Assembly (NCBI RefSeq): GCF_013408925.1
Contig: NZ_JACCAB010000001.1
Coordinates: 2,294,001-2,358,000, forward strand
From: Pedococcus badiiscoriae
GTDB taxonomy: Bacteria; Actinomycetota; Actinomycetes; Actinomycetales; Dermatophilaceae
DNA: 64,000 nucleotides
Direction: 5' to 3'
The position numbers and the translations under genes were made by a program. The number at the start of each line of letters is the position of its first letter. The first letter of the stretch is position 1. Below the pieces are notes generated by a model. It saw only the letters and a list, made by a program, of their open reading frames with translations, searched no databases and was not told the origin of the DNA. Below, in pieces: positions 14,169-64,000 of the stretch.

Positions 14169-15541
14169 GTCTCGCCGAGCGTCTCGAGAGTGTCCGCAGG
14201 AGCCAGCAGGCGGCCGAGGCGAACGCCGGGTCCCAGACTCCCGCGGCCGCCCACGAGCGGCAGCGCGTCGCTGACCCGTTCGGCGTCGTCAAGGCCAGCG
14301 TCCACCAGGCGCTGCTCGACTCGCTCGGTCCGCAGCTCTACGACCCCCACCTCGACCAGGCCGAGCTCGAGTCGAAGGTGAGGCACACGCTCCAGGAGGT
14401 CATCGACCACGAGGAGACCCCGCTCTCCCTGGCTGACCGCACGCGTATCTCCCAAGAGGTCGCCGACGAGATCCTGGGTCACGGGCCGCTCGAGCCGCTC
14501 CTGCGCGACAGCGAGATCACTGAGATCATGGTCAACGGTCCGGACCAGATCTACGTCGAGCGTGCCGGCAAGCTCTACCCCGTCGAGACGCACTTCAGCT
14601 CCGACGCCCACCTGCGCCGCACGATCGACAAGATCGTTGGGCGCGTCGGTCGTCGCGTCGACGAGGCCAGCCCGCTGGTGGACGCCCGCCTGCCCGACGG
14701 CTCCCGCGTCAACGCGGTCATCCCCCCGATCGCCCTCGACGGCTCGCTCCTCACCATCCGTAAGTTCGCCACCGACCCCTTCACGGACAAGGACCTCATC
14801 GCCTTCGGTACGTTCACGCCGCAGGTGCGTGACTTCCTGAGCGCCTGCGTGAGGGGGCGCCGCAACATCGTCATCTCCGGTGGTACCGGCTCGGGCAAGA
14901 CCACCTTGCTCAACGTCGTGTCCTCGTTCATCCCCGACGACGAGCGCATCGTCACCATCGAGGACGCGGCGGAGCTCCAGCTCAAGCAGGACCACGTGCT
15001 GCGCCTCGAGTCGCGTCCGTCCAACATCGAGGGCCGCGGCAGGATCGACATCCGTGAGCTCGTCAAGAACGCGCTGCGTATGCGTCCCGACCGGATCGTC
15101 GTCGGTGAGTGTCGAGACGGGGCCGCCCTGGACATGCTCCAGGCCATGAACACCGGTCACGACGGCTCATTGACGACCGTGCACGCCAACAGCCCGCGCG
15201 ACAGCCTCGCCCGTCTCGAGACCATGGTGCTCATGGCTGGCGTCGACCTGCCCGTGCGTGCCATCCGCGAGCAGGTCGCCGGAGCCGTCGACATGGTGAT
15301 CCAGCAGGCCCGTATGAAGGACGGCTCGCGTCGCGTCACCGCGATCAGCGAGGTCATCGGCATGGAGGGCGAGATCATCACGATGCAGGACCTGTTCGCC
15401 TTCGACTACGCCGCCGGTCGCGACGAGCAGGGCCGTTTTCGAGGCACCCTCAAGAGCACCGGACTGCGACCGAAGTTCGCCACCGAGCTGCACGACCAGG
15501 GGATCGAGCTGGCGCCCGACATCTTCGTCCGGGGGCTTTGA
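14165..15541 (+). CDS. cpaF: CpaF/TadA secretion ATPase
   Basis: This is the 458-residue hexameric ATPase that powers Flp pilus assembly. The N-terminal half carries the GSPII_E-type region with EITEIMVNGPDQIYVERAG; the motor domain has Walker A GGTGSGKTTLL near residue 238, an Asp box with IEDAAELQL, and Walker B RPDRIIVGECRDGAALDML, followed by the His box HDGSLTTVHANSPRD. All key motifs are present. The length is normal for the family. It is coupled by overlaps to cpaE before it and the vWA-TadB gene after it. A second, truncated CpaF of a different subfamily occurs at 58818. Confidence 0.93.
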   Translation: MSLAERLESVRRSQQAAEANAGSQTPAAAHERQRVADPFGVVKASVHQALLDSLGPQLYDPHLDQAELESKVRHTLQEVIDHEETPLSLADRTRISQEVADEILGHGPLEPLLRDSEITEIMVNGPDQIYVERAGKLYPVETHFSSDAHLRRTIDKIVGRVGRRVDEASPLVDARLPDGSRVNAVIPPIALDGSLLTIRKFATDPFTDKDLIAFGTFTPQVRDFLSACVRGRRNIVISGGTGSGKTTLLNVVSSFIPDDERIVTIEDAAELQLKQDHVLRLESRPSNIEGRGRIDIRELVKNALRMRPDRIVVGECRDGAALDMLQAMNTGHDGSLTTVHANSPRDSLARLETMVLMAGVDLPVRAIREQVAGAVDMVIQQARMKDGSRRVTAISEVIGMEGEIITMQDLFAFDYAAGRDEQGRFRGTLKSTGLRPKFATELHDQGIELAPDIFVRGL

Positions 15542-58650: not shown

Positions 58651-58817
58651 CGGTCGACCGTAGGCGCGCTACGCCCTGGCCCCAGCCGGCTGTACACAGC
58701 TGTGGACGAGCGCAAGCGTCCGGCCTCGTGTGGCCTTAGTATGACGACGACGTCCGCAACCGGAAGCAAACGGGAGTTTGCCGACCAAGGTGGTTGGGAC
58801 GTCAGGGGGAGGGTGAG

Positions 58818-59531
58818 TTGGACGCTGTCATGACTGTCGAGTCCGAGGTCCGGGAGCTGATCAGGCGGTCGGGGGTCGACCCTGCCCGGGACGTGGGCGA
58901 GCTGGACCGACTCGTCCGTGACGCCGTGGCTGACTACGACGAGCGGTCCCTTCACGGGAGTCTTCCCGCGCTGGCCGATCTGGAGGCCGCGGTGAAGGAG
59001 GTCAAGGACGCGGTGGCTGGTTTCGGACCGCTCCAGCCGTACTTCGACGACCCCGAGGTCGAGGAGATCTGGATCAACGAGCCCACCAAGGTGTTCGTAG
59101 CCCGGGCAGGGGTCGCCGAGCTCACCACCACGATGCTGACGGCCGACGCGGTGCGCGACCTCGTCGAGCGGATGCTCAAGACGAGTGGGCGCCGGGTCGA
59201 CCTGTCGAGCCCGTTCGTCGACGCCGTCCTGCCTGACGGGTCGCGCCTGCACGTGGTGATCCCTGACATCACCAGGACGCACTGGTCGGTCAACATCCGC
59301 AAGTTCGTGGTGCGCGCTGCCCACCTGGACGACCTGGTCGCACTCGGCACCCTCACCCCGCACGCGGCGCGGTTCCTGGGGGCGGCCGTCGCGTCCGGGC
59401 TCAACATCCTGGTCGCCGGGGGCACCCAGGCCGGCAAGACGACGTTGCTCAACTGCCTGAGCGCCGCCATCCCAGCACGCGAACGGGTGGTGACCTGCGA
59501 GGAGGTTTTCGAGCTAGCAAAAGCTAAATAA
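58818..59531 (+). pseudogene. truncated CpaF-like secretion ATPase, interrupted by island
   Basis: This gene encodes the N-terminal 237 residues of a CpaF/VirB11-type ATPase of a subfamily distinct from the one at 14165. It has FGPLQPYFDDPEVEEIWINE, LPDGSRLHVVIPDI and a Walker A of GGTQAGKTTLLN, then reads ERVVTCEEVFEL and stops after AKAK at TAA 59529. Relatives continue for another 150 residues or more with the Walker B and His boxes, so the ATPase core is lost. GC falls abruptly after 59515. TTG 58818 has a GGGGGAGGG site just upstream; ATG 58830 is the alternative. It is probably not functional. Confidence 0.85.
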
Positions 59532-59924
59532 GTAGAGACCTCTGATCGAGCGTCCGCGCGTCAGGCGCAGGACCAGACAGCCTTCGGCCACAGCCGAGTG
59601 GTTCCTTCGAAGGTCGTGGTACATCTCGAATTGGTCCCGCACGGTTGATCATCGCTGGTTCACGTTGGCCCAAGGCGCTGACCTGCGCAAACGCGACTTG
59701 TCCCCGTTGGTCGACGGTGGTGATCCGTGAACATCTTGCGGACTTTCTGCGGACTGCCGGCAGGCGCTTATCAGGCCTTGCCCCTGGCTGACAGGGCGAT
59801 CAAGCGGGGAAGGCCGGATCGTAGGTCGAACGAGGCGCGGAATCGAAGGTCCAAACATGTCGCCTCCGCAGGGCCACCGTCATGGGCCCAATGAAGCCGG
59901 CATCCTCGGGCCGCTTCTTCTTCG
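59532..59924. other. junction-proximal intergenic DNA of the island
   Basis: No convincing gene is found in these 393 bp: the open frames are short and lack codon bias. The junction sequence around 59504-59525 is quasi-palindromic (TTTTCGAGCTAGCAAAA) and includes AGCT repeated on both sides of AGCAAA, which might be the core of a recombination site. No tRNA-like sequence is present. Confidence 0.5.
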
Positions 59925-60174
59925 TTAACCTCCGACGACGCCGACGCTGTCTATTGTAGGCGCATCACTAGGTGATGAAGACCCACCCTGCATCAGGGAC
60001 CGCACCTCGTCTAGAGCGCACATGAAGGCGCGAGCGAGGCTCGAGACACACTCCCTGGTCGTCCTCGTACTGGAGTGGGACGTGGTCGAGGAAGGGGATC
60101 TTGGCTGCCCATCCGGATGGGTGTGCATTCTTCGTGGCAATGGGGTGGGACGAGCCGACGACACGCCGCGTCAT
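59925..60174 (-). pseudogene. small island gene with one-base frameshift
   Basis: An ATG at 60174 overlaps the stop of the 726-residue gene (ATGA), as expected for the next gene of the operon. The frame reads MTRRVVGSSHPIATKN and HVPLQYEDDQ, then drifts into basic low-quality sequence. In the +1 frame the text continues sensibly (ECVSSLARAFMCALDEVRSL) to a TAA at 59925. Removing one G from the GGG near 60048 would give one protein of about 82 residues. Either the gene is broken or the base is a sequencing error. Function unknown. Confidence 0.55.
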
Positions 60175-62351
60175 CCTTCGGCTAGTTCGCGGAGAATCGC
60201 CGACGAGCCGCGAGAGTTCACCTGAATGATCGGCAAGCCGCCGCGGTGATCCTTGATGAAGTTAGTGGCCGCGTGTTTCGCAGAAGCCGCGACCATCACG
60301 AAGACGTCGGCGTTAGCGCTGAGGGCTGCCAGTTGCTGGCTCCCGTCGTATTCGGACGTGGTGCGCACATCGATGCCTGGGACCAAACGGCGCAGAATCT
60401 GCGCTGTGCGGGTAATCGAAGGCTCCGTGAGTGAGTAAAGGACGACAACGGCGTCCCTCAGGTGCCGGTAGGGAGCAGCCGGGTCGACATCTGAGTTCTC
60501 GACCTGGAAGTCATCCGGCAGGCTGGTCGCCAACTCCTCTGCCACCAGGCTGAGCCCCTCGATGTCGGCGAGACTGAGACTGGATTTCACTGGGCGCAAC
60601 ACGTCGAGTGCGCGGTAGAAGAGGCGACTCTTGGCAGCTAAGGCGAGGGCGGGCGGACTCGTAGTGGCCGCCTGCAGGACGTCGACCGTCCAACTGGCGG
60701 TCACAGCCGAGGTGGCGGCATCGATAATTACTTCCGTCCACTCGAGTGCGGAGGTCAAGATGGCGGAACCCGGGCCCGACGCTGCCAAGCACTCTAGGAG
60801 TGCGATCGTCTGCACTCGAAGACCGACGGAATTCTTCTCGCTGACGGCGAACGCCGCGAGCACTCGTTCGCACAACTCAGCGCCGTCCGCTCCCGAGAAC
60901 AGCGCCGAGTGCGCCGCCATGAAAGCACCTCCGTGGTCTCCCAACCGGGCCAACGCTTCGTCGTCCAGGGAGGCCAGACGGTTGGCGACGGTGGATCGGT
61001 CCAGGGTCGCCCACTCGGAGGTGAGGCTAAAGTCGGTTGCTCCGTCGCTGAGGATGTCCGCTTGTAGGGCGTCGAACCAGCCGAGCCATCCCAGGCTCCG
61101 TTGCGGATTGAGGAACCCCTCCAGCCAGCCGAGGTCAGCGCGGACGATGACATCGTTCTCGGGCGGTGCCTCCCGGAGCCCCGATGCGTCGACGAAAGCG
61201 GCCACGTCGGCAGCGATTTGTGCGTCTTCCAACTCCCGTACACACGCGAGGAGGAGGGCGGCGCGCCCTGGTGTCGGTGTGTCCGCAAGACCCACGTTGA
61301 TTGCGGCGGCGAACTCGCCCTCTTCGACAAGTCGGTGGATCTCGGCGTCCGGTTCGGGACGTGTCGCCGGCGCGGCAATCGGCGCCTCTGCTGGGGCTAG
61401 CGGTTGCGGTTCCTGAGCGTTCGTAGGCGCGAAGAGGAGTCGAAGGGAGTCGGCCAAACTGGGCGACAAGGCCTCGGCTTGGCCGGCCAACCGCTCGAGC
61501 GACGTAGTCGAGGCGTTCCGCAGCAGTGAAAGCATGAACTCGACGACCACAGAAGGCCGCGTCGTGGCGGGGCGGCTCGTCGTGAGTGCACGGAGGTTCG
61601 TGGGGATGTGCCCTGCAGCGGCTAGAAGGGCGGATGCGTCGTCGGAGTTGTCCGCCGACGCAAGGTAACGGTCGTAGACCGCGGTCTGGAGCTGGCGTGT
61701 GATTCCGATAGGTCGCCGCAGTTGTAGGACGTGCTCCAGGTCCTGGTCGGCGAAGATTGCAGCTGTGTCCCCCAGCCCGGCGTATACCCGGATGCGAAGG
61801 AATGCCAGATTCGCCTGGTCGAGATCGGCGGACGCCTCGAGTTCACGGAGACACGCGAGCGCAATTCGGCGATCCCCGGCACCAAGCGCGTGGCCGAGGT
61901 CGTCGAGAACCTCGATAGTGGTGCGTGGTGCATCGAACTCTGAGCGCGGGCGCATCCAAACCAGTTTGGATAGAACCAGCAGTGTTTGGCGCACCTCGTC
62001 GCGGGACGCGCCACTTCCGCGCGGAAGCACCTCGAACCGCAACGGGGGCACGCGTTCGGATGCCAACGCAGCGTCAAAAGGATCTTGCGGATACAGGCGT
62101 CCCCTCCTCCCGGGGAGGTCGCTGAAGGTCGGACCAACCCAGGCGTCGAGGAGTGTGAGTAGTTCCTTCTGTTCCCGCATCGTGGGCGCGAAGGCGTACC
62201 AATACAACCTTCCCGCCGCTACCCTCGGGAGGAACGCAACCTGCTTCCGCTTGATGGCCTCGAGCCAATTGTCTATCGATGTCTCATGCTCAGGATGCAG
62301 ACGGGAGGGGTCGATCTCGTTGCCCTCGCCGAAGAACTCCTCAGCGACCAT
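60171..62351 (-). CDS. large island protein, DpdD-like
   Basis: This 726-residue protein has no catalytic motif I can name. The N-terminus (about 20-110, WLEAIKRKQVAFLPRVAAG) is globular, the middle is helical and TPR-like (about 140-600), and the C-terminal 90 residues look like a Rossmann-type sensor domain similar to DUF2325: VVVLYSLTEPSI, TTSEYDGSQQLAALSANADV, VAASAKHAATNFI and VNSRGSSAILREL. The overall size, C-terminus and place after a DpdK-like gene suggest DpdD of the 7-deazapurine DNA system. ATG 62351 has GAGAG 8 nt upstream; GTG 62360 is the alternative. It overlaps the PLD gene. Confidence 0.6.
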   Translation of the reverse strand: MVAEEFFGEGNEIDPSRLHPEHETSIDNWLEAIKRKQVAFLPRVAAGRLYWYAFAPTMREQKELLTLLDAWVGPTFSDLPGRRGRLYPQDPFDAALASERVPPLRFEVLPRGSGASRDEVRQTLLVLSKLVWMRPRSEFDAPRTTIEVLDDLGHALGAGDRRIALACLRELEASADLDQANLAFLRIRVYAGLGDTAAIFADQDLEHVLQLRRPIGITRQLQTAVYDRYLASADNSDDASALLAAAGHIPTNLRALTTSRPATTRPSVVVEFMLSLLRNASTTSLERLAGQAEALSPSLADSLRLLFAPTNAQEPQPLAPAEAPIAAPATRPEPDAEIHRLVEEGEFAAAINVGLADTPTPGRAALLLACVRELEDAQIAADVAAFVDASGLREAPPENDVIVRADLGWLEGFLNPQRSLGWLGWFDALQADILSDGATDFSLTSEWATLDRSTVANRLASLDDEALARLGDHGGAFMAAHSALFSGADGAELCERVLAAFAVSEKNSVGLRVQTIALLECLAASGPGSAILTSALEWTEVIIDAATSAVTASWTVDVLQAATTSPPALALAAKSRLFYRALDVLRPVKSSLSLADIEGLSLVAEELATSLPDDFQVENSDVDPAAPYRHLRDAVVVLYSLTEPSITRTAQILRRLVPGIDVRTTSEYDGSQQLAALSANADVFVMVAASAKHAATNFIKDHRGGLPIIQVNSRGSSAILRELAEG

Positions 62352-62865
62352 GGTGGACACTCTCGTACAGGGCGTTGTAGGCGATGTGGGCTTCGGCGAT
62401 GTCGTGGGGGTCGCGGGTCAGTGTGACGCCTTCGGCGTTGACCGCTTGGCCAAAGAAGGTGAAGTTCATCGAGCCCTGAAGGTGGAATCGGTCGCCCAAG
62501 ATGCCCTTGTCATGTAGGTGCGGATGGACTCTCACAGTGGGTCGCGAGCCGGAACCGCCGACGTTCTCGAGCCGTTGCAGCGCGACGACATTGCTTTCGG
62601 CATCGCGCGTTAGGACGCGGACGTCGCAGCCTCTTCGGGCCAGTTCGATCAGCACCTCGGTGAAGCGGATCTTGCGGGATGGGAGGCCGGGCAGGACGGT
62701 CTTGAACTGGCCGGCGGTGTTGTCAATGACGTCGATGTCGGAGATCCACGGTGACAGCACCCAGAGCTGCCGGGACGGCACCAGGAGCTCGGTGGCGAGG
62801 AGGTTTTGCATAAGATCGTTGAGCACACGGGTGTGGCCGCGCCCCGAGGTCGTGATCCGCCTCAT
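62341..62865 (-). CDS. phospholipase-D-like protein, DpdK-like
   Basis: This 174-residue protein has a single PLD-type catalytic half site: HLHDKGILG followed by LQGSMNFTFFG, the HxK...GSxN pattern of phosphodiesterases and nucleases of this superfamily; two copies usually dimerise to make one active site. The N-terminal part reads LWVLSPWISDIDVIDNTAGQF. This combination matches DpdK, the PLD protein of the Dpd DNA modification/restriction cluster, as I recall it. DrmC of DISARM is also a PLD protein, but is larger. The gene is coupled by four-base overlap to the gene before it. Confidence 0.72.
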   Translation of the reverse strand: MRRITTSGRGHTRVLNDLMQNLLATELLVPSRQLWVLSPWISDIDVIDNTAGQFKTVLPGLPSRKIRFTEVLIELARRGCDVRVLTRDAESNVVALQRLENVGGSGSRPTVRVHPHLHDKGILGDRFHLQGSMNFTFFGQAVNAEGVTLTRDPHDIAEAHIAYNALYESVHHGR

Positions 62866-64000
62866 GCTGATACCTCAGCGAGTTCCAGGGTGACAACCAC
62901 GTCGCCGTTTGCGCGGTGGTCGACTTCCACCACGCCGGGGTACACGTTGAGGTACTCGGTCACTATCGGTTCCGTACTCAGGCTAACGAGCAGGTTCGCC
63001 AAGTCATGTGCCTGTTCCGGTGTCGCGAGCACCTGCGCCGAGCCCCTCTCGGCCAGAAGCTTCCGGGCTCGGGCTTCAAAACCGTCGGTTAGCGGAAGTG
63101 GCGGTTCACCTTGCGACGCGATCGAGCGCAACACCTCGGGAGCGGGCGGCAGATTCTCGGCGAAGGGATTCCATGCGCTCAGTTGTTCGGCTCGGAGTTG
63201 CCAGCCTCGCGGCCAGAGCAGACTTTGCACGGCATCCATGCGCTGGCGGGAGGTCCCTCCACCAGCAAGCACCAGGCCCGCATCGAGTTCGGATCGCTCA
63301 CGCACGAGATAGGCCCAGGTACGCGGAGGGATCTCAACGCCGAGCCGGCGCTCCTCTGCCTTCCACTCGGTTGTCACGGTCGCCACGCACGCATCGGTAG
63401 CAGGCGTCGAGCCTGGCCGAAGTACCCGGCTGGAGAGCGACGACACGACCGCCTGTTCGGCGCCATATATCCCAGATTCTCGAAGGGCACTTCGAATACT
63501 TCCCAGCATGTCGACGCGCGTTTGCTGGTCGGGGGCCGAGCGAAAATCGTTGACCAAGCCGGCCCAGGTCGCGTCCGTCGTTGTCAGATCAATTACGCGC
63601 TGAAGATGGCTGTCGACGAGTTCGTAACTGCTGGGTTGGGTGGCGCGCATGATGAGCCGAAGCAATCGCCGCGGGTCAGGGCGAACTCGAGCCGCGAGGG
63701 CTTCTATGAAGCCGCCGCCGCCGATCGATGATTCGGTCAGCCAGATCTCGCCAGTCCTCGGCCGGTTCTCGGAGTCATAACCTGGCTCGATGTCGACGAT
63801 GACGCTCTCTGGGTCGTGCTCGGGGCAGATCTGTCGAGCCGCGGCGAGAGCCGCGTGACCAATCGTGGACAGCGTGCGCGCCCGAACCCACTGGTTGAAG
63901 GCTGTCGGCTCGGGCGCCCAGTACTGCGGCGCCAACGCATCGAGGCGAGCCACTATCGCTGGGTTCTTCAGCGCCTCCTTGAGCCGGGCCCCCAGGTTCG
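62862..64000 (-). CDS. C-terminal part of a large island protein, DpdJ-like, partial
   Basis: The frame is open from the stop at 62862 to the window edge (about 379 residues), so this is the tail of a longer protein whose start lies beyond position 64000; an in-frame GTG at 63953 is not the true start. The visible part has VIVDIEPGYD followed by EIWLTESSIGGGGFIEALAA, then a helical region. The GGGG loop recalls the C-terminal domain found next to DEAD-box helicases such as DrmB/DUF1998 and DpdJ. Its place just before a DpdK-like gene favours DpdJ. Only the helicase part outside the window could settle it. Confidence 0.55.
   Translation of the reverse strand, partial: NLGARLKEALKNPAIVARLDALAPQYWAPEPTAFNQWVRARTLSTIGHAALAAARQICPEHDPESVIVDIEPGYDSENRPRTGEIWLTESSIGGGGFIEALAARVRPDPRRLLRLIMRATQPSSYELVDSHLQRVIDLTTTDATWAGLVNDFRSAPDQQTRVDMLGSIRSALRESGIYGAEQAVVSSLSSRVLRPGSTPATDACVATVTTEWKAEERRLGVEIPPRTWAYLVRERSELDAGLVLAGGGTSRQRMDAVQSLLWPRGWQLRAEQLSAWNPFAENLPPAPEVLRSIASQGEPPLPLTDGFEARARKLLAERGSAQVLATPEQAHDLANLLVSLSTEPIVTEYLNVYPGVVEVDHRANGDVVVTLELAEVSA

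Follow-up and report, generated by a model that had tools for sequence, protein, structure and literature searches.

A predicted complete Dpd modification–restriction system on a mobile element of an actinobacterium, with synthesis and restriction cassettes that seem to be inherited separately

The DNA analysed here, called the window, comprises bases 2,294,001-2,358,000 (64,000 nucleotides) of the single-contig genome of Pedococcus badiiscoriae (3,386,878 bases). Its right end raises the question of which system the last operon belongs to, and whether the parts of that system share one history. Three coupled minus-strand ORFs lie there, with overlaps of a few bases between neighbours, and a sequence-only reading had found their motifs to fit dpdJ-dpdK-dpdD of the Dpd 7-deazapurine system. 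The motifs it cited (VDIEPG, GGGGFIEAL, HDKGILG and GSMNFT) and the coupling by short overlaps were found in the ORFs where it had placed them. The 3' part of the helicase-like dpdJ occupies 62862..64000 of the minus strand (open-ended ORF 62862-63998), contains VDIEPG and GGGGFIEAL, and scored 346.2 bits against NCBIfam NF041067. The whole gene (62862-67427, minus strand, likely ATG at 67355) scored 1809.3 bits against a cut-off of 800. The next gene, dpdK (62341..62865, minus strand), encodes a phospholipase D-like protein of 174 aa that matched NCBIfam NF041068 (190.6 bits, cut-off 100) and Pfam PLDc_2 (32.2 bits, cut-off 27). Its sequence holds HDKGILGD...GSMNFT, which we take to be the HxKx4D...GSxN pattern of PLD nucleases. 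For dpdD (60171..62360, minus strand) we obtained 595.4 bits against NCBIfam NF041061 (cut-off 300) and 177.9 bits against the PADLOC DpdD profile. The dpdD ORF encodes 729 aa from a GTG, or 726 aa from an ATG three codons later, which is the length the sequence-only reading had given. That reading had also described a DUF2325-like end of this protein, and here the likeness was confined to a Pfam match below threshold (14.4 bits against a cut-off of 33.6). PADLOC profiles concurred with NCBIfam. Judged by their NCBIfam equivalog scores, the dpdJ, dpdK and dpdD frames are well past chance, and the motif-based assignment holds.

Past 64000 the genes are given in window-frame coordinates. The minus-strand operon extends there through dpdI (67352-68062), dpdH (68059-71115; NCBIfam 675.4 bits, cut-off 450), dpdG (71112-72035; 146 bits, cut-off 80), dpdF (72032-74629; 648.4 bits, cut-off 550) and dpdE (74633-78061; 1135.6 bits, cut-off 500). 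A gap of 89 bases separates dpdE from dpdB copy 1 (78151-79254; 513.4 bits, cut-off 300), which is followed, also on the minus strand, by the TGT-like dpdA (79247-80476; NF041059, 597.7 bits, cut-off 200), dpdB copy 2 (80473-81657, likely ATG at 81609; 401.2 bits, cut-off 300) and dpdC (81606-82475). The two dpdB genes, which are DGQHR/ParB-like, thereby flank dpdA. DpdA, both DpdB proteins and DpdD, E, F, G, H, J and K all scored above their NCBIfam cut-offs, and the reading frames of the cluster are intact. A source of preQ0 adjoins the dpd genes in the form of queC (82499-83281; 212.2 bits, cut-off 150.3), queE (83278-83913; 334.9 bits, cut-off 240), queD (83910-84278; 113.3 bits, cut-off 89.25) and folE2 (84283-85062; 215.5 bits, cut-off 215), all above cut-off, on the plus strand and divergent from the dpd operon. 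The sequence-only reading had expected dpdA, dpdB, dpdC, dpdE-H and preQ0 genes on this side, as against DISARM or another system, and these are the genes that lie there, with dpdB present twice. Among 297 genomes sampled from the order, DpdA exceeded the model cut-off in two, one of which is this genome. From this gene content we conclude that the cluster is very probably a complete Dpd modification-restriction system, with 7-deazapurine in DNA, carried on a mobile element (see below).

The assignment of dpdC rests on PADLOC, in which the product of this intact 289-aa gene matched PDLC02817 at 325.6 bits over residues 4-288. The product had no Pfam match, and DUF6884, given as the DpdC family in a published account, had no Pfam match anywhere in the genome. 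A "dpdC-less variant", suggested by the empty DUF6884 search and by an ORF list whose base-composition filter had hidden the gene, was dropped in view of the dpdC homologue in the same slot of relatives, the intact frame and the PADLOC match. The name dpdI rests on position between dpdH and dpdJ. Its product fell far under the model cut-off (17.7 vs 150 bits), and each of the 21 DpdJ loci examined has an ORF in the DpdI slot, 229-424 codons long when counted between stops.

A fourth small gene had been proposed as an accessory member. It exists as an ORF only, of 68 aa at 59968..60174 of the minus strand, joined to dpdD by an ATGA overlap. It gave no NCBIfam or PADLOC match, no relative among the fetched loci except copies of its own locus, and no candidate relative in a protein database search. 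Its codon score of 0.10 is just below the 5th percentile of in-frame Dpd stretches (0.107), yet within the wrong-frame range (95th percentile 0.251). DNA similarity to Nocardioides caeni stops at 60169 and to Cellulomonas sp. KH9 at 60171, the dpdD stop, and in KH9 the dpdD match ends only about 113 bases from the end of the dpdB1 match. The accessory role was therefore dropped on family, relative and spacing evidence; the ORF lies outside the conserved cassette, its membership of the Dpd system is not supported, and we do not count it.

As described in PMC12839542, PMC11888242 and PMC12707154, DpdA with DpdB inserts preQ0 into DNA, DpdC yields dADG, and the remaining genes lower uptake of unmarked DNA. 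By analogy with the family, preQ0 would here be made by FolE2, QueD, QueE and QueC, and DpdA with DpdB would swap guanine in DNA for preQ0, which DpdC would hydrolyse to the amide (dADG). DNA without the mark would be attacked by DpdE-K and DpdD, which comprise helicases, ATPases and the PLD-type DpdK, the candidate nuclease of the system. The DNA of this cell would accordingly be predicted to carry a modified base at some guanines, and unmarked DNA to be restricted.

We considered whether the operon could be DISARM, BREX or another helicase-nuclease defence that merely resembles Dpd, and whether DpdA and the que genes could form a tRNA 7-deazaguanine pathway next to an unrelated helicase operon. 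The former is extremely unlikely. DpdE does match DISARM DrmD models (124 bits in NCBIfam, 105.2 in PADLOC), and DpdK weakly matches DrmC (18.4 bits), but the corresponding Dpd scores are far higher (1135.6 and 190.6 bits) and 124 bits compares with a DrmD cut-off of 610. In addition, dpdA, dpdB, dpdC and the preQ0 genes adjoin the operon, and no DrmB is among the PADLOC matches listed. The DISARM set of DrmA, DrmB, DrmC and a methyltransferase was represented just by these helicase and PLD cross-matches, well under the Dpd scores, and a DISARM-type identity is refuted by gene content. The tRNA pathway, though it would suit a TGT-like DpdA with weak matches to tgt models, is very improbable as well. 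DpdA scored 597.7 bits against the DpdA equivalog and 20.6-21.1 against tRNA TGT models, and relatives likewise have these synthesis genes beside restriction genes. The tRNA Tgt model matched nothing in this genome, as against matches in 14 of 14 control genomes, which would in principle leave DpdA as its sole Tgt. The missing tRNA Tgt match bears equally on the preQ0 genes, which therefore probably serve DNA. The host seems to be an actinobacterium without queuosine in tRNA, and preQ0 in it can therefore be read as a DNA precursor.

Among known systems, the cluster is like those of Salmonella Montevideo (gene content as given in PMC11888242 and PMC12707154) and of plasmid pPOL9A (Enterobacter cloacae) in having dpdA, dpdB, dpdE-H, dpdJ, dpdK and dpdD, with the restriction genes in the order E-F-G-H-I-J-K-D. 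In pPOL9A an unnamed gene fills the dpdI slot, and another before dpdA was taken as dpdC. The cluster differs from these systems in its two dpdB genes, in its in-cluster preQ0 genes, and in a restriction operon that is co-directional with the synthesis operon (convergent in pPOL9A); its DpdA is 46.6% identical to that of pPOL9A. The system type and these added features are already known: PMC11888242 counts 801 extra dpdB copies and 146 compositions of variable dpd gene content, and places preQ0 genes in about 27% of Dpd islands.

The sequence-only reading had called the operon island-borne with a left edge at 59516, and both statements were borne out. The cluster lies on an element that splits a tadA/cpaF-like secretion ATPase gene. 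The 5' part of that gene (58794..59515, plus strand) covers TIGR03819 profile positions 34-220, its alignment with genes of the same genus extending to 59515, and the 3' part, covering profile positions 221-339, begins at G000:C1:2424113, about 70.6 kb rightward. Each flank was aligned separately to five same-genus genomes with intact tadA. The left alignment stops at 59515 in all five, making 59516 the first base past it, and the right one begins at 130100 in three of the five; in the other two it starts six bases to the left of this, over a stretch with some mismatches. A GCT is common to both flanks, as the attL crossover at 59513..59515 and at attR in 130100-130102, and defines an element of 70,587 bp (59513-130099). 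At its right end is a large serine integrase (minus-strand ORF 128610-130145, likely start near 130070 inside the element), with Pfam Resolvase (108.3 bits) and Recombinase (47.8 bits) matches above cut-off and a Zn_ribbon_recom match (23.8 bits) below it; an enzyme of this type is in keeping with the very short crossover. Of ten further genomes from the genus, nine have their best tadA match within an open frame of 418 codons or more. In the remaining one (G323) the gene is broken at another point, into a 240-codon frame (594883-595536 of contig C11) and a 32-residue piece (600134-600229) 4.6 kb on, and the gene may therefore be a recurrent insertion target. A second, stop-free tadA-like ATPase match lies in the window at 14381-15349 on the plus strand (TIGR03819, 343 bits, under the cut-off of 373).

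Other cargo of the element includes a DUF4192 protein (99211-100245), an IS110-type transposase (107398-108681) and a Prim-Pol domain protein (125617-127647). A third protein of the DGQHR type (520 aa, minus strand, 85999-87561; L003:8099-9661) is encoded beyond folE2 and contains VVDGQHR; it matched TIGR03187 at 50 bits, below the cut-off of 58.85, and had no Pfam match. An apparent tandem duplication lies between 111487 and 116601, where ORFs recur 2717 bases apart (111487/114204 and 113216/115933).

A reference genome scan with one actinobacterial query returned 22 loci with a DpdA relative. All 22 carried a dpdC-like gene (truncated in L054, where the contig ends) and a dpdA with a dpdB gene on each side, and the restriction genes lay downstream and convergent in 16, downstream and co-oriented in four, and upstream in two. 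The MAG that contains locus L058 (G312) has two full-length DpdJ-like genes, on contigs C253 and C133. We refer to dpdC-B-A-B plus queCED-folE2 as the synthesis cassette, and to dpdE-F-G-H-I-J-K-D as the restriction cassette.

The closest relatives of the two cassettes were found in different hosts, Nocardioides for synthesis and Cellulomonas sp. KH9 for restriction. In four Nocardioides, DpdA is 83-87% and DpdB1 89-91% identical to the proteins of this cluster, with DpdJ only 34-36%. In KH9 both DpdA and DpdB1 are 63% identical, but DpdJ is 85% and DpdK 90%; identity there is 72-90% over all eight restriction genes and 40-70% for DpdC, DpdB2, DpdA and DpdB1, and the restriction cassette is inverted relative to KH9's own synthesis genes. 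N. caeni DSM 23134, whose cluster has the same order and orientation over 60169-85041, is near this cluster in both cassettes (restriction proteins 72-85%, DpdA 78%), with DpdA and DpdB1 less like the ones here than those of the four other Nocardioides (where DpdJ is about 35%). Agreement over all eight restriction genes was observed for N. caeni and KH9 only. At the DNA level, KH9 matches 60171-78043 at 78.6% with synthesis pieces only at 67-71%, Nocardioides jensenii is similar over 78158-85040 (77.9%) and in a single further piece of 234 bases in dpdJ, and N. caeni matches 60169-85041 at 75.8%. The extents of these matches thus put one break at the stop of dpdD and another in the gap between dpdB and dpdE.

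Phylogenetic tests covered 21 rows, in which DpdJ and DpdK represented the restriction set. L054 (short contig) and L061 (no DpdJ) were left out throughout, L062 (Planctomycetes) was also left out of the AU, label and Mantel tests, G048 was added, and pPOL9A was present in the first trees (23 rows) and omitted from the tests. Grouping the window with N. caeni and KH9 on the synthesis tree costs 222 log-likelihood units (p-AU 1.2e-41), and grouping it with five Nocardioides on the DpdJ tree costs 2792 (p-AU 5e-8); the trees were quick ones and the groups were picked after the identity table was known. Congruence of the synthesis and DpdJ trees is rejected. Mantel tests over 21 genomes gave r of 0.25-0.82 for the 15 gene pairs within the synthesis set (all p <= 0.02) and 0.65 for DpdJ-DpdK (p 0.0005). 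Between the sets, r ranged from 0.01 to 0.22 over 12 pairs, with p < 0.05 in one (DpdC-DpdK, r 0.22, p 0.02). Host-group labels were placed on 18 of the 21 rows, leaving the window, G048 and one Actinomycetes MAG unlabelled. The synthesis tree needed seven label changes, the least possible for eight labels, and 0 of 500 shuffles were as low, while the DpdJ tree needed 11 and 230 of 500 shuffles were as low. We conclude that, among the 18 labelled relatives, host lineage is reflected in the synthesis tree but not in the DpdJ tree.

These comparisons suggest that the synthesis and restriction cassettes of this cluster were inherited separately. A broader reading, for which we see about as much reason to accept as to doubt, is that Dpd comprises two exchangeable cassettes, a marking one that descends with the host lineage and an attacking one that moves from lineage to lineage, whatever its orientation and whichever side it sits on. 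Uneven rates or paralogy of DpdJ, rather than transfer of restriction cassettes as wholes, could also underlie the tree conflict. In favour are the long branches of DpdJ, flags on some of the joins between long branches, and a second DpdJ on another contig in one MAG, but the contrast between restriction and synthesis genes in KH9 extends to all eight restriction genes, and the KH9 DNA match stops at the edges of a cassette that is inverted there. The DpdJ used was, moreover, on the same contig as dpdA wherever coordinates were compared, and we regard rate or paralogy effects as unlikely.

Exchange of cassettes would bear on how restriction recognises its target. That attacking cassettes change partners suggests that they read the mark and not the partner enzymes, and the attacking half probably does so independently of contacts with its own marking enzymes. 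A restriction part is likewise separable in phosphorothioate (Dnd) systems, where the modification set occurs with or without the restriction set (PMC8569181); chemistry and genes differ, and the comparison is one of kind, not descent. Our literature search, which covered neither the founding paper nor a review from 2024, found no account of cassette exchange in Dpd, and we make no claim of absence from print.

The cluster gives the family a predicted complete Dpd system from an actinobacterium, on an island whose insertion site is solved. Natural swaps between closely similar partners would show which contacts are dispensable, and they offer ready-made pairs for asking whether restriction reads the mark alone. 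If the two-cassette reading is true, any attacking cassette would work with any marking cassette, because it would read the 7-deazapurine mark itself, and phage counter-defence would drive turnover of the attacking half.
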